In this document: positions 9,712-60,374 of the stretch, in pieces | How positions within the stretch are numbered: the stretch's first letter is position 1 | How the letters are laid out: every line of letters begins with the position of its first letter | Origin: Bradyrhizobium sp. LLZ17 | GTDB lineage: Bacteria > Pseudomonadota > Alphaproteobacteria > Rhizobiales > Xanthobacteraceae | DNA: 64,000 nt | Direction: 5' to 3' | NCBI RefSeq assembly: GCF_041200145.1 | Contig: NZ_CP165734.1 | Span: 2,356,001-2,420,000, forward strand | Notes under the pieces: generated by a model | Told to the model about the DNA's origin: nothing | Databases searched by the model: none | The model's input: only the letters and a program-made list of their open reading frames with translations | Made by a program: the position numbers and the translations under genes

Positions 9712-10482
9712 ATGGATCTCGGTCTCAAAGGAAAGAACGCTGTCGTGCTCGGCGGCACGCGCGGCATCGGTCGGGCGATTGCGGCAACGCTCGCCGGTGA
9801 AGGCACCAACGTCGCGCTGTGCGCACGCAATGCGGATCAGGTTGCCGCGACCGTCGCGGAGTTGAAGGCCGGCGGCATTCGCGCGGCCGGCAGCCCGGTC
9901 GACGTCACTGACGGCGCGGCGCTGAAGTCCTGGATCGAGGCTGCAGCGAAAGAGCTTGGCGGCATCGATATGCTGTTTTCCAACGCCGGCGCCATGGCGC
10001 AAGGCCACGATGCTGCATCGTGGGAGCAGAATTTCCGGCTTGACCTGCTCGGCGCCGTAGATGCGTTCGACGCCGCACGGCCGTTCCTCGAAGCCAGCGG
10101 TGAGACGAGCGGTGACGCGGCCTTCGTCATCATCTCCTCGATTTCGGCGGCGCAGGCCGATCTGGCGAGCTCCTATGGCCCGATCAAGGCGGCGCTGATC
10201 CACATGGCCAAGGGACTGGCGCGGCAATATGCGAAGAAGAAGATCCGCGTCAACGTGGTCTCGCCCGGCACGGTCTATTTCAAGGGCGGCGTCTGGAACA
10301 CGATCGAACAGAACATGCCCAAGCGCTACGAGGATGCGATCAGCCGAAATCCGACGGGTCGCATGGCCACGCCACAGGAAATCGCAAGTGCCGCGGTGTT
10401 TCTGGCAAGTCCGGTGTCGTCGTTCACCACGGGCTCCAATCTCGTCGTTGATGGCGCGATCTCAAACCGGGTGAATTTTTAG
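9712..10482 (+). CDS. SDR-family NAD(P)-dependent oxidoreductase
   Basis: The 256-residue product is a classical short-chain dehydrogenase. The cofactor-binding GGTRGIGRAIA is at residues 14-24. The structural NAG appears in LFSNAGAMAQG. The catalytic Ser lies in IISSISAA and the YxxxK pair in SYGPIKAA. The C-terminus VDGAISNRVNF resembles that of FabG-like reductases. It would oxidise or reduce a hydroxyl/carbonyl substrate that cannot be deduced. An AAAGGAG ribosome site precedes the ATG. Confidence 0.9.
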   Translation: MDLGLKGKNAVVLGGTRGIGRAIAATLAGEGTNVALCARNADQVAATVAELKAGGIRAAGSPVDVTDGAALKSWIEAAAKELGGIDMLFSNAGAMAQGHDAASWEQNFRLDLLGAVDAFDAARPFLEASGETSGDAAFVIISSISAAQADLASSYGPIKAALIHMAKGLARQYAKKKIRVNVVSPGTVYFKGGVWNTIEQNMPKRYEDAISRNPTGRMATPQEIASAAVFLASPVSSFTTGSNLVVDGAISNRVNF

Positions 10483-10543
10483 AGGGCTACGTTCTCGAAG
10501 CCCGCTCCGGCGAGAGTGTGGCGCCCAGTCATTGCAACAAGCT

Positions 10544-10629
10544 CGTCATTGCGAGCGCAGCGAGGCAATCCAGACTGTTTCTGCGAAGGCAGCTGGATTG
10601 CTTCGTCGCAAGAGCTCCTCGCAATGACG
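10544..10629. repeat. REP/BIME element, CATTGCGAG family
   Basis: The 12-bp arms CGTCATTGCGAG (10544-10555) and CTCGCAATGACG (10618-10629) are perfect reverse complements. Inside them, GCAATCCAG pairs with CTGGATTGC. It lies between the convergent SDR and dnaE2 genes, where it may act as a terminator-like hairpin. If the dnaE2 frameshift is not corrected, the element is read as a spurious protein tail. Confidence 0.8.
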
Positions 10630-10650
10630 GCGCGGACACAACAACGGCCT

Positions 10651-13600
10651 TCAATGAAAATCCCGCGACGGCGGCAGGACGCGGACGTTGCGGGGGTGGC
10701 GGATTTTTGCGCGGGGGCGTCGGGATGGACGCGAGGGTCGTCGTTGAGCGGCTCGATCAGGGCGACGCCTGATGGCTCCGGGTGCTTGCGGCTGAGGGCG
10801 TCGTTGGCAAGGCCGATCAGATCGTGCGAACGGTCGACCATGCGCTGCGCGATCAGATGCGTCACCTTTTCGGGGCTGCTCTGGATATAGCCTTCGACCA
10901 GGACGAGGCGCGCGCCCATCACCTCCTTGCGGTACTGCTCCATGATCTTCGGCCACACCACGATATTGGCGATGCCGGTTTCGTCCTCCAGCGTCATGAA
11001 CACCACGCCGCTGGCACTGCCCGGCCGCTGCCGCACCAGCACCACGCCGGCGCAGCGGACGCGGCGCCGATCGTTCTCATGATTGATGTCCTTGCAGGCG
11101 ACGATTCGTTCGCGCGAAAACATCTCGCGCAGAAATTCCATCGGATGGCCCTTCAGCGAGAGCCGGATGGTCTGATAATCCGCGACCACCTGCTCGGCGC
11201 GCGGCATCACCGGCAATGGCTTTGCGTGCTCGTCCGGCTGCTCGCGCGCAGTGGCCGCCTCGAACAACGGCAGCGGCACGTCGTCGGGCAGGCGCCGCAC
11301 CTGCCACAGCGCCTCGCGGCGGTCGAGCCCGAGCGAGCGGAAGGCGTCGGCGTCCGCCAGCAGGATTAACGCGCGCTTGGGCAGGCCGGTGTCGCGGGCG
11401 AAGTCTTCGAGTGAGGTGAAGCTCCGGCGATTGCGGGCGGCGACGATGCGGTCGGCCCAGTCCAACTCTCCGCCGTCATTCCGGGGCGCGCCAAGTGACG
11501 CGCCCCGGAATGACGACTGGATGATCTTTAGTCTCTCCTCATCCTCGTCCCGCCAGTGAAAGCCGTCGATCTGGCGAAAACCCAGTCGCACGGCGCAGTA
11601 TTTGCCGCTCCCCTCCTCCAGCGTGTTCTGCGCAAAGCTGTAGGACACGTCGATGTCGCGCACCTCGACGCCGTTCTTGCGCGCGTCGCTGACGATCTGT
11701 GCCGGCGCATAAAAGCCCATCGGCTGCGAGTTCAGCAGGCCGCAGCAGAATGCGTCGGGATGGTAGTGCTTCAGCCAGGACGAGATGTAGACGAGTTGCG
11801 CGAAGCTGGCGGCATGGCTTTCCGGGAAACCGTAGCTGCCAAAACCCTTGATCTGCTCGAAACAACCTTTGGCGAATTCGGGATCGTAGCCCCGCGCGAC
11901 CATGTTGCCGATCAGCTTGTCCTCGTATGTGCCGATGGTGCCGACATTGCGGAACGTCGCCATCGAACGGCGCAGGCCGTTGGCTTCCTCGGAAGTGAAT
12001 TTCGCGGCCTCGATCGCGATACGCATCGCCTGTTCCTGGAACAGGGGCACGCCGAGGGTTTTGTGCAGCACCTTGAAAAGCTCGTCCTTGTCGCCATGCT
12101 GCGGCGACGGCGATGGATAGCTTACTTTTTCCAGGCCGTTCCGCCGGCGCAGATAAGGATGGACCATGTCGCCCTGGATCGGACCGGGGCGCACGATCGC
12201 GACTTCGATCACGAGATCATAGAACTCCCGCGGCTTCAGACGCGGCAGCATGTTCATCTGCGCGCGGCTCTCGACCTGAAACACACCGAGTGATTCCCCG
12301 AGGCACAGCATGTCGTAGACCTTGGGATCATCCTGCGGGACGCTCGCCAAAGCCCAGCGCTCACCCTTGTGCTGATCGATCAGATCAAAGCACTTGCGGA
12401 TGCAGGTCAGCATGCCGAGCGCCAGCACGTCGACCTTCATCATATTGAGCGCGTCGACATCGTCCTTGTCCCATTCGATGAAAGTGCGGTCGTCCATCGC
12501 GGCATTGCCGATCGGCACATAGGTGTCGAGCCGGTCTTGCGTGAGCACATAGCCGCCGACATGCTGGGAGAGATGGCGCGGGAATTCGATCAGTTCGGTC
12601 GCAAGCTCGACCGCAAGGTTGATCATGGGATTCTGCGGATCGAGCCCGGCCTGCTTGACCTGCATGTCGTTGAGGCCCTTGCCCCAGCTGCCCCAGACGG
12701 TGTCGGCGAGCGCGGCGGTGACGTCCTCGGTCAGTCCGAGTGCCTTGCCGACATCGCGAATGGCGCTGCGCGGGCGATAATGGATGACGGTGGCGATGAT
12801 CGCGGCGCGGTGGCGGCCATAGCGGCGATAGACATATTGCATCACCTCCTCGCGCCGGGAATGCTCGAAATCGACGTCGATATCCGGCGGCTCGAGCCGC
12901 TCCTTGGAGATGAAGCGCTCGAACAGCAGATCGACCTTGGTCGGATCGACCGAGGTAATGCCGAGCACGTAGCAGACGGCCGAATTCGCCGCCGATCCGC
13001 GCCCCTGGCACAAGATATTCTGGCTGCGCGCGTAATGCACGATGTCGTGCACGGTGAGGAAGTAGTGCGCGTATTTCAGCTCGGCGATCAGGGCGAGCTC
13101 TTTCTTGAGGGTCGCGCGAAGCTTGTCGTCGATGTTGCCGTTGAAATAGGTCTGCACGCCGGCCCAAGTCAGATCCTCCAGATGGCCTTGCGCGGTCTTG
13201 CCCGGAGGCACCGGCTCATCCGGATACTGGTATTTGAGCTGGTCGAGCGAGAACTCGATGCGATCGGCAAACCGCATGGTCTCCGCGATCGCCTCCGGAA
13301 AATCACGGAACAAACGCGACATTTCTCTGGGAGGTTTCAAGAACCGTTCGGCATTGGCTTCGAGCCTTCTCCCGACCGCCTCGATCGTGGTCTTTTCCCG
13401 GATGCAGGTCAGCACGTCCTGCAGGGGACGGCGGGCCGGATCGTGATACAGCACCTCGTTGGTCGCGAGCAGCGGCACCTTTGCTGTCGTCGCGAGATCA
13501 TCGAGCTGCGCCAGGCGGCGCCGGTCGTCGCCGCGATAGATCAGGCTCGCCGCCAGCCACACGCCCTCGGCGCGGCTTGCCCTGAGTTTTGCGAGAATAT

Positions 13601-14042
13601 CCAGCGCTTGCGCTTGGTCAAAGCGATGCGGCAGCGTCAGGACCAGGAGCTGGCCTTCGGCAAACGCAAGGAGATCGGCGAGAGTGAGATGGCATTCACC
13701 CTTCTCAATCCGCGTGATCTCGTCGCCGCGCTTGCCTTTGGTGAGGAGCTGGCACAACCGGCCGTATGCGGCGCGATCGCGCGGATAGACGAAAATGTCG
13801 GGTGTGCCGTCGATGAAGACGATGCGCGCGCCGATCAGGAGTTTTGGCTTGTGCAACACCTCGGTGTTGTCGAGCTCGTTGTAGGCGCGCACGACACCGG
13901 CCAGCGTGTTGTGATCGGCAATCCCGATCGCGGGGATGCCCAAAATGCTAGCCTGATGCACATAGGCGCGCGGGTCCGATCCGCCGCGCAGGAACGAGAA
14001 GTTGGTGGTGATGCCGATCTCGGCATAGGCTGATGTCGTCAT
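10651..14042 (-). CDS. dnaE2: Error-prone DNA polymerase DnaE2, with C-terminal frameshift
   Basis: This C-family polymerase starts MTTSAYAEIGITTNFSFLRG (PHP domain). The catalytic block PPDIDVDF follows in the polymerase III alpha core, then helix-hairpin-helix and OB-fold regions. It performs translesion synthesis with ImuA and ImuB. Its ATG overlaps the imuB stop (ATGA). The frame breaks at a five-T run (10704-10708, plus strand). One more base restores the usual family C-terminus, KIRHPRN to SRDFH, with a stop at 10651 and about 1130 residues. Without the correction, translation runs through the downstream REP to 10479. An in-frame palindrome interrupts a variable part of the coding region. 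Confidence 0.88.
11474..11515. repeat. Palindromic element inserted in frame within dnaE2
   Basis: CGTCATTCCGGGGCGCG (11474-11490) and CGCGCCCCGGAATGACG (11499-11515) are a perfect 17-bp inverted repeat around an 8-base loop. The element lies inside the dnaE2 coding frame, near residue 845, and is translated as roughly SSFRGASLGAPRND. Both frames on either side read normal DnaE2 sequence, so it adds residues without breaking the gene. Confidence 0.85.
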
Positions 14043-15622
14043 GCGAAGAGACCGTGCACATACCATTTGGCGGGAATGGACTTGCCCTCGTCGTCAATCA
14101 GCTCGTCGTAGAGACCATCGCGAAACATCCAGAAGCGCAGGCCTTCGGCATTCTCGATGCGGAAATAATCCCGCGTCAGTTGCCTGCCGTCCTGCCGCCA
14201 CCATTCCATGGCGATACGCTCGGGCCCTTCCACCCGCACCACGGCATGCTGCGCGCGCCGCCAGGTGAATTGATGCGGCGGGCCGTCGGGCACGGTCGCG
14301 AACGGCACCGTAACCTGCTCCGGTTTTTCAAACAGCCGCAAGGGCCGCAACGGCGGCTCGCTCGCGGTGCGCGACGGCCATTCGACCTGCATGGCGGCGG
14401 CAAGATGATGCTGCGCAGGCGCAGCCAGCACGGCGTACTCTGGAATATGGGTATCCTGCGGCAGGTGCACGACGACGCGCTTTCCGCCGATGCGCGCGGC
14501 AATGCGGTCGACCAGTGCCGCCAGCTCGTCATTGTCGTGGACGTGAGCATCGAGATCGCGCTGCTCCTGCACCACGATTTCGGTGCGGCTCGCCGACAGC
14601 CGCACCATGTCGAAGCCGAAGCCGGGATCGAGGGGGTCGGCGAGCGCGTCGAGACGCTCGCGGAACAGACGGTCGATGACCTTGCTTTGCGTGACCGGCC
14701 GCCCGGTCTCGACCATGATCGCGCGCACCACGCCGTCGGTGCGGAAGAACGCGGCCTCTAGGCGGCGCGCGCCCTTGCCCTGCTTCTCCATGGACGTAAC
14801 AAGCGTGTCCGCCAGGCGCGACAGCGTCATCGCAATCATGGTGTCGGTCGCAATCGGCTCGGCAAAACGTTTTTCCACGATGTAATCAGGCAGCGGTTTG
14901 CGCGGGCTGATCGGCGCATCGCCCTGTCCCAGCGCATGCGCGAGCAGCGTGGAGAACCGCGCGCCGAACCGCGCCGTGATCTCGTGCGGCGCGCGGGAGG
15001 CAACATCGCCGATGGTTTTCAGGCCGGCACGGCGCAGGCCGGTGGTGATGGCCTCGCCCGCGCCGAGCGCGGACACCGGAAGCCGGTTGATCGCTTCCGC
15101 CTCCCCGCCATCCGCGACGATGGTGCCTGAAGCCTGGCGCGTCAGCGTGCGCGCACAGACCGAGGTTCCGGCGATCGCCGCGCTGACGGCAAAACCCTGA
15201 CGAGCCAGCGCTCGAACCAGCGTCTGCAACAGCGCAGCTTCGCCACCGAACAGATGCGCGCAACCGGTGATGTCCAGGAACAGCCCGTGCGGCGGATCGA
15301 GCGCCACCAGCGGGGTGAAGCGATCGCACCAGTCGGCGATGTCACTGAGAGTCTTCGCATCGGCCACGACATCGGCGTCGAATACTTTCAAACCCGGGCA
15401 CATCGCCCGGGCATTGGCCAGGGGCTGGCCGACATGCAGCCCCAAACGCGATGCCGCGTCGTCGAGCGCATGGATCACCAGCGCATTGTTGTCCTTGATG
15501 ACAACGATGTTTGGTTCACCCTGCGCGCCGCTGCTCGGCAAGAACCGCTTGATCCTGTCGATAGGCAGGCGCGGCAGCCACAGACTGAGGATACGACGAT
15601 GGTTCAGAGAACTGGCACTCAT
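14039..15622 (-). CDS. imuB: ImuB, Y-family DNA polymerase-like mutagenesis factor
   Basis: The 527-residue protein starts MSASSLNHRRILSLWLPRLP, the typical ImuB opening. It continues with a Y-family polymerase fold (VIKDNNALVIHALDDAASRLGLHVGQPL) and a helix-hairpin-helix region around GLKTIGDVASRAPHEITARFG. ImuB proteins lack the catalytic acidic residues of active Y polymerases and act as a hub binding the beta clamp, DnaE2 and ImuA. The gene overlaps imuA by 107 bp and dnaE2 by 4 bp, so the three genes are translated as one operon. Confidence 0.88.
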   Translation of the reverse strand: MSASSLNHRRILSLWLPRLPIDRIKRFLPSSGAQGEPNIVVIKDNNALVIHALDDAASRLGLHVGQPLANARAMCPGLKVFDADVVADAKTLSDIADWCDRFTPLVALDPPHGLFLDITGCAHLFGGEAALLQTLVRALARQGFAVSAAIAGTSVCARTLTRQASGTIVADGGEAEAINRLPVSALGAGEAITTGLRRAGLKTIGDVASRAPHEITARFGARFSTLLAHALGQGDAPISPRKPLPDYIVEKRFAEPIATDTMIAMTLSRLADTLVTSMEKQGKGARRLEAAFFRTDGVVRAIMVETGRPVTQSKVIDRLFRERLDALADPLDPGFGFDMVRLSASRTEIVVQEQRDLDAHVHDNDELAALVDRIAARIGGKRVVVHLPQDTHIPEYAVLAAPAQHHLAAAMQVEWPSRTASEPPLRPLRLFEKPEQVTVPFATVPDGPPHQFTWRRAQHAVVRVEGPERIAMEWWRQDGRQLTRDYFRIENAEGLRFWMFRDGLYDELIDDEGKSIPAKWYVHGLFA

Positions 15623-16307
15623 CACACTTCCATTCCATGATCCAGCGGCCGCACGGGCCATGACGATTGCGCAAGAGCTCGGCATCGAAGCGCGGCGCGC
15701 CCCAGGCACTCCATGTCGTCCCCGGCGGCGAATGCGCCGCGCGCAGCATCCATCGCGTCTCCGCAGTCGAAGGCAGCGGCTGCGCGGCCATCCGCAGCAG
15801 CAGGCCGGTGACGCCGGAAGCTTGCGCGGCCAGCGTCAGCTTGCGGCTCGCCACGAGATCGAACTGTCTGGTCTCACCCCAGAGCTCGAGCACGACCGCC
15901 CCCAGCGCATCGCAGGCAAGCGCGTCGGCCGAGGTCCGTAACGCACTCTCCACGTCAGCCGCACGCACCAGCACCACGCGGCGCGGATCGAGACCGAGCT
16001 CGGCAAGCCCGCTCATCGACAGCGCGCCGGTTTCAGTTTCCGAAAAATCCTGCCGCACCCACAAAAGCGGTTTGCGCGCCGTCACGCGACCCGCAAGCCC
16101 GCTCACAAAACCCGTCGCGGCGGCGCCCTGGCGGCCCTCGCAAAACACCTCGTGGATTGTCGCGCGCGCGAGCCCGCCCATCAGTGCGGTGTCGGCCCCG
16201 TCGTGGCCGAGCGCGACGCGATCGCGATGATGCACGACCTCCGCCGTCTCGATGCGCTCGATCTGGCCGCGCAAGGTCGCAAGCGCGCTACTACGTGCGC
16301 CGCTCAT
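15516..16307 (-). CDS. imuA: ImuA, RecA-like mutagenesis protein
   Basis: This 263-residue protein is the first gene of the imuA-imuB-dnaE2 cassette. It has the ImuA/SulA-like layout: an N-terminal helix (LATLRGQIERIE), GLARATIHEVFCEGRQGAA, the strand KPLLWVRQDF, DPRRVVLVRAADV, and VVLELWGE. The C-terminal block RWMLRAAHSPPG to GAPRFDAELLRNRHG is characteristic. ImuA is a RecA-related accessory factor for damage-induced mutagenesis. A LexA box lies 66-81 bp upstream. Confidence 0.87.
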   Translation of the reverse strand: MSGARSSALATLRGQIERIETAEVVHHRDRVALGHDGADTALMGGLARATIHEVFCEGRQGAAATGFVSGLAGRVTARKPLLWVRQDFSETETGALSMSGLAELGLDPRRVVLVRAADVESALRTSADALACDALGAVVLELWGETRQFDLVASRKLTLAAQASGVTGLLLRMAAQPLPSTAETRWMLRAAHSPPGTTWSAWGAPRFDAELLRNRHGPCGRWIMEWKCDECQFSEPSSYPQSVAAAPAYRQDQAVLAEQRRAG

Positions 16308-34457: not shown

Positions 34458-34480
34458 GCGCGCACGCAGCTACCAACGAA

Positions 34481-34520
34481 ACAGGCCCGGTCGCCATCGC
34501 GACCGGGCCTGTTCTTTTGT
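34481..34520 (+). terminator. Rho-independent terminator after hpnH
   Basis: ACAGGCCCGGTCGC (34481-34494) and GCGACCGGGCCTGT (34499-34512) form a perfect 14-bp stem with a CATC loop, followed by TCTTTTGT. Confidence 0.92.
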
Positions 34521-35472: not shown

Positions 35473-35506
35473 AAAAGGCCCGACCGCAATCGCGACCGGG
35501 CCTTTT
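35473..35506. terminator. Bidirectional hairpin terminator after hpnG
   Basis: AAAAGGCCCG (35473-35482) and CGGGCCTTTT (35497-35506) pair around ACCGCAATCGCGAC, with A and T runs on the two sides. It serves hpnG on the minus strand. It closely resembles the hpnH terminator on the other side of the RAYT remnant. Confidence 0.8.
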
Positions 35507-60262: not shown

Positions 60263-60286
60263 GCCTTGCTCACGGCTTTGCGACGT

Positions 60287-60363
60287 CGTAGCCCGGATCG
60301 AGCGCAGCGCAATCCGGGCGGCGCAGCTTTTCCCGGATTGCGCGTCGCTCCATCCGGGCTACG
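60287..60363. repeat. BIME: paired GTAGCCCGGAT palindromes
   Basis: CGTAGCCCGGAT (60287-60298) and ATCCGGGCTACG (60352-60363) are perfect complements. The inner GCGCAATCCGGG (60307-60318) pairs with CCCGGATTGCGC (60332-60343). It sits between the hydrolase and the HD-domain gene. Confidence 0.87.
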
Positions 60364-60374
60364 AGAAACCCGAC

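Follow-up and report, generated by a model that had tools for sequence, protein, structure and literature searches.

The locus raises the question of why a palindromic repeat lies in frame inside a polymerase gene. In the window, the 64,000-nucleotide stretch of DNA that was analysed, the element reads CGTCATTCCGGGGCGCG-CCAAGTGA-CGCGCCCCGGAATGACG, a perfect 17-bp stem closed by an 8-nt loop (Table 1). An inverted-repeat search returned it as 20-nt arms (11474-11493 and 11496-11515) that are 95% complementary across a 2-nt spacer, which is equal to the perfect 17-bp stem with its 8-nt loop. The original prediction of a perfect 42-bp palindrome was correct in its 17+8+17 structure and loose in its wording, as the 42 bp include the loop. 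The element codes for the 14 residues SSFRGASLGAPRND on the minus strand and is in frame within an open frame of 1195 residues; it sits inside the polymerase with the frame unbroken, as predicted, but at residues 851-864 and not near residue 845.

Table 1. Features of the window discussed in the text (positions are those of the whole stretch).
Feature	Position	Strand	Basis or location
dnaE2, error-prone DNA polymerase, 1195 aa	10479..14066	-	open frame and PRK05672 match
42-bp REP of CGTC type, 17-bp stem and 8-nt loop	11474..11515	-	residues 851-864 of DnaE2
Expanded turn of first helix-hairpin-helix motif, holds repeats	11457..11561	-	residues 836-870
Second CGTC-type composite palindrome (CGTCATTGCGAG...CTCGCAATGACG)	10544..10629	-	in DnaE2 C-terminal tail frame
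Gene upstream of dnaE2, weak Pol IV model matches; ImuB by position	14039..15709	-	
Open frame further upstream; ImuA by position	15516..16307	-	

The host gene encodes a DnaE2: it scores 1563.5 bits with the NCBIfam error-prone DNA polymerase model PRK05672, whose cutoff is 939, and its nearest named relatives are from Bradyrhizobium. The more distant upstream frame we take to be ImuA from its position alone, while the gene adjacent to dnaE2 is probably ImuB, as judged from its position and weak Pol IV matches. With a DnaE2 frame behind imuB- and imuA-like genes, the placement of the palindrome in an SOS polymerase stands, and the gene order matches that expected for an imuA-imuB-dnaE2 cassette as outlined in the consulted part of PMC3919608. 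The second composite palindrome, which has 65 genome matches on both strands, forms part of the C-terminal tail of DnaE2. The consensus end of DnaE2 in relatives (RHPRNV..LP.SRDF) is found in the window in a different frame (ORF 10651-10956); thus, the tail of the window protein (10479-10700) departs from its relatives beyond approximately residue 1126.

Alignment with E. coli Pol III alpha places the insert after the sequence IDGF, opposite E. coli IKGV, which is presumably the turn of the first helix-hairpin-helix (HhH). The Pfam HHH_6 match starts only at residue 870, at profile position 37 of 90. In the predicted structure (pLDDT 76.5, pTM 0.72, 29 sequences in the alignment), whose closest structural matches are C-family polymerases, residues 856-866 have a pLDDT below 50 and are modelled as a loop between helices 841-853 and 870-880; the expanded turn is probably disordered. 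Among 70 other DnaE2 loci the turn, measured from the alignment, consists of 3 residues in 55, which speaks against a block kept at the protein level in distant DnaE2s without the palindrome. Turns of 15-28 residues, in which a repeat was not recognised, were found in 12 of the 70, from Rhodopseudomonas, Afipia, Tardiphaga, Xanthobacteraceae and Bradyrhizobium and including several MAGs. Because these relatives have longer turns without repeats, enlargement of the turn probably came before its invasion by repeats. Two further loci (L064 and L069) have turns of 74 and 80 residues with repeat-like filling, and L109 was misread. L069, with its 80-residue filling of the same turn, is a Hyphomicrobiales MAG outside Bradyrhizobium and perhaps represents an independent invasion.

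The genome, searched as one contig of 7.8 Mb, contains 200 copies of the 14-base arm CGTCATTCCGGGGC when up to one mismatch is allowed (103 forward and 97 reverse), compared with 2 forward and 0 reverse in a reversed-sequence control. The likeness to intergenic REPs that had been noticed from the letters is borne out by this high copy number and by a location mainly outside coding sequence (see below), and the window palindrome is a REP: short, dispersed, in many copies and mainly outside genes. It shares with the CGTC REPs surveyed by Di Nocera in 2013 (PMC3733652) the CGTC ends, the A and T next to them, the high copy number and the mostly intergenic location. According to the sections of that survey consulted, the CGTC tag is unpaired, the stem is 8-9 bp long and starts with A and T, the short unpaired tails mostly fit CCA and the repeats have no transposase associated with them, whereas the window element carries CGTC at both ends paired with its counterpart, has A and T after the tag in a 17-bp stem that includes the tag, and is without CCA directly after either end. 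The REP dimers described in the survey could pair their tags as the window element does. Since the CCA tail is absent and the tag is paired, we name the element CGTC type and do not treat it as a firm CGTC-1 member.

The same survey places Bradyrhizobium among the CGTC REP carriers, with loops of unusual length, and had reported intragenic REPs already in 2013, with error-prone DnaE2 polymerases and UvrD/Rep helicases among the REP-tagged proteins. Intragenic REPs are therefore a known kind, and what is added here is the recurrence pattern at one dnaE2 site in a genus: as the survey's text has it, REPs in genes of one functional category sit at different sites, except in recB of two Xanthomonas, whereas Bradyrhizobium dnaE2 has one site that holds several families across the genus. 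The survey also counts the Rickettsia families RPE-4 and RPE-6 (R. conorii) as CGTC REPs, so the comparison with the palindromic elements of Rickettsia proposed in the original prediction was apt. Both are palindromes in frame within protein genes, the translation of the window copy being predicted, but the genus is another one, and the likeness drawn here is one of in-frame placement. Br-REP1 and Br-REP2 of B. japonicum USDA 110 are, in the parts of Hahn 2016 (PMC5082802) consulted, intergenic and in 3'-UTRs. In the open-access literature on intragenic REPs, DnaE2, UvrD and Bradyrhizobium no further paper was recognised from titles and abstracts, which is weak evidence of absence.

The same site was examined in 210 loci, 80 from named genomes and 130 same-genus dnaE2 genes that include the window's own. 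A match was present in 190 of the 195 genomes searched, and the same-genus genes come from 130 of these, picked among the listed, higher-scoring ones. Both linker anchors were matched in 182 of the 210 loci, and in all 182 the linker is in frame and stop-free; for the 28 loci without an anchor match, mostly from distant taxa, the turn was taken from the alignment, except in L075 and L088. Every one of the 130 same-genus genes has an open, in-frame linker, with an anchor-to-anchor stretch of 31-110 residues. That every linker read is open and in frame speaks for a maintained enzyme and for translation of the insert, which is thus probable. By peptide motif, a repeat-like linker is present in 103 of the 130 genes and no repeat is recognisable in 27, so that the comparison among close relatives, proposed with the original prediction, finds the site in both states. 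The repeats belong to at least four families (class A in 82 genes, B in 10, C in 7, D in 3, other in 1), as assigned with lenient peptide motifs that include degenerate remnants, e.g. L122, L123, L126, L127, L181 and L194.

The window's own repeat defines class A, which mostly takes the form of a longer composite (SFRG...PES...MDSG...PRND). Classes B (GSLPPCGG...LPRKGGG), C (LPLAGEGWGGG...PPPQAGEV) and D (LPQAP..SPQRGEV...SPYGRG) appear unrelated to A. The insert DNA of one example per class was matched against the genome it came from, which gave 141 (B), 57 (C) and 29 (D) matches over both strands, partial and palindromic double matches among them, and all four families are each dispersed in one genome, A in that of the window. 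Among unique loci, an A-like motif accompanies the C repeat in 8 of 10 inserts, the D repeat in 4 of 5 and the B repeat in 2 of 13. This suggests that they nested within a REP already present. When DNA only was searched, with at most one mismatch and no use of the peptide, A arms were found in 105 of 182 linkers, and their reading frame is identical for all 88 left and all 89 right arms. The DNA arm, again with at most one mismatch, backs 84 of the 88 A-class loci of the tree described below, and 80 of the 130 same-genus genes carry it. The single frame of all A arms fits one old A entry with later turnover as well as it fits many entries.

Close relatives often differ in their linker repeat. 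On a tree of 160 dnaE2 genes, from whose alignment the linker was excluded and row L074 dropped, the distinction between insert and none requires at least 26 changes (19 after collapsing branches with SH-aLRT <95; means of 37 and 31 under shuffling) and the six states none, A, B, C, D and other at least 50 (43 collapsed; shuffled means 65 and 56). These counts are below the shuffled values, hence the insert state partly follows ancestry. They could be inflated by recombinational exchange of dnaE2 alleles, and a short allele with KKEQAKRQGKEYV-like sequence is scattered over many places of the tree, the pattern predicted by such exchange. The 25 most closely related pairs with A inserts share members; in 16 of them the insert alignment reaches less than half of the maximum, at dnaE2 tree distances of 0.056-0.121, and the top score is 0.98. 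In a second complete genome, G122, the insert is closer to another species' dnaE2 insert (187 of 204) than to 51 copies in its own genome (166 of 204), while the window insert ties at 60 of 84 between an other-species dnaE2 insert and own-genome copies. A recent same-genome origin of the insert, sought in these two genomes, is thus unsupported, and some of the tree changes may represent allele exchange.

The A-type arms were surveyed elsewhere in both genomes with a coding test whose codon statistics were trained on dnaE2 and which may overlook atypical genes and the ends of genes. The window genome yielded 82 unique arm clusters from the stretches around all 91 listed exact arms, and G122 52 clusters around 59 exact arms; one-mismatch arms were covered where they lie within these stretches. 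Only 2 of the 82 clusters are in frame and flanked on either side by coding-like sequence, those in dnaE2 and in locus L295, and in G122 only the dnaE2 cluster is in frame within coding sequence (1 of 52). The remaining 80 and 51 clusters lie outside coding sequence or out of frame within it. L284, considered as a third genic copy, is a weak candidate seen at one of four settings of the coding test.

L295 (1348-3942; G000 at 6.9 Mb) encodes a UvrD/PcrA-type helicase, with TIGR01073 as its best model at 753 bits against a cutoff of 911. Its repeat lies in the variable loop between motifs II and III. This loop has 19 residues in each of the 15 loci read from the sister genus, where 21 genomes matched, 54-89 residues in all eight same-genus genomes and 63-86 residues among the best 120 of 7999 homologs. 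Its contents vary: VIPG...RPGMT is the A repeat in another frame, as read from the DNA in L295, SLPGLTRQ and SPRVRGEV...HPDPLSASGAR are candidate repeats, and the loops of L401 and L404 contain no recognisable repeat. An A arm within 3 mismatches is found in two of the eight same-genus loops, those of L397 and L403. Thus, one UvrD/PcrA loop shows the same recurrent behaviour as the dnaE2 turn. The L295 insert also contains a stretch that resembles, by eye, the Br-REP2 consensus as given in PMC5082802.

We consider it probable (roughly 0.78) that the palindrome is a tolerated insertion of a CGTC-type REP, a non-autonomous repeat, read as 14 extra residues in a permissive DnaE2 loop that has been repeatedly turned over. 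In the Bradyrhizobium/Rhodopseudomonas/Afipia group the turn was already longer than elsewhere among DnaE2s, also where it lacks repeats, and this would have made it permissive. Repeats would then have entered it and been nested into, replaced and partly deleted many times, or whole alleles may have been swapped by recombination, and only in-frame, stop-free states would have survived because the polymerase was kept. Permissiveness is then the likely reason for the site, with purifying selection presumably acting on the frame and little effect on the enzyme. Permissiveness alone has its difficulties, as the loops of thousands of proteins should hold REPs, yet the two genomes show them only in dnaE2 and uvrD, and tolerance by itself does not explain why both hosts are DNA-repair genes. 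These same observations (both in-frame genic copies of the window genome in repair genes, and the single one of G122 in dnaE2) would be expected if the repeats were kept because an insert in the HhH turn alters the grip on DNA or the docking of ImuB, so that turnover retunes mutagenesis between lineages. A similar speculation was made from other species in PMC3733652, and a contact of the DnaE2 (HhH)2 region with the ImuB thumb has been modelled (PMC12926913). We nevertheless regard such tuning as unlikely, given that insert sequence and family vary freely, that the linker differs so widely in length over the 130 genes and that 27 of these have no recognisable repeat. Slightly less likely still is the broader idea that the DnaE2 turn and the UvrD/PcrA loop are evolvable repeat cassettes in Bradyrhizobium, in which REP turnover sets lineage-specific mutation rates and changes mutasome or helicase behaviour, and selfish repeats are preferentially retained in mutation-controlling genes.

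The original prediction proposed that a strong mRNA hairpin could affect translation; it might slow the translation or the decay of the dnaE2 message. The sense-strand RNA of the palindrome folds with -49.9 kcal/mol (z -9.9), with 0 of 200 shuffles as good, and the B, C and D inserts also contain inverted repeats by eye, which leaves room for a general hairpin role. Moreover, the commonest synonymous codon has a share of 0.88-1.00 at arm codons compared with 0.42-0.99 at flanking sites, and this greater constancy points to renewal, conversion or constraint on the DNA. The arms themselves, compared in the 72 of 88 A-class loci with both arms (16 without a recognised arm were omitted), have changed in a one-sided manner, with no compensatory change in any of the 72 sequences, and in 24 of the 72 they are imperfectly matched within the first 9 bp, with G-U pairs retained in some. 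Renewal or conversion is therefore a better explanation of the arm codons than selection for pairing, which favours tolerated insertions in permissive loops. As the site lacks a repeat in some genes and is occupied by other families in others, an effect of the hairpin on translation does not hold up well, and we judge it improbable. Even the discrete nature of a hairpin within a conserved domain, which might suggest removal before or during translation in an intron-, bypass- or intein-like manner, carries little weight: all 182 linkers are stop-free and in frame, which removal would not need, and an Rfam search of 10300-14300 gave no match at E up to 0.1. Such removal is very improbable.

With the tolerated insertion as our preferred reading, one DnaE2 loop resembles a site where genomic repeats land, and dispersed repeats can provide protein-coding sequence. 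The 2013 survey, in the sections consulted, left undecided whether REPs in repair genes are accidental or protein-changing (PMC3733652). A genus with more than 100 natural alleles at one site, with or without repeats and from several families, makes accident versus effect directly testable. Repeat-bearing loops may also weaken model-based annotation, a possible cause of the partial HHH_6 match and of the UvrD protein falling under the PcrA cutoff. Elsewhere in the window, two similar hairpins 1 kb apart (34480-34513 and 35473-35506; arms AACAGGCCCGGTCGC and AAAAGGCCCGACCGC) are terminator-like, and a 33-nt inverted repeat starting TCGTAGCCCGG (60286-60364) looks, by eye, like a GTAG-type REP pair.
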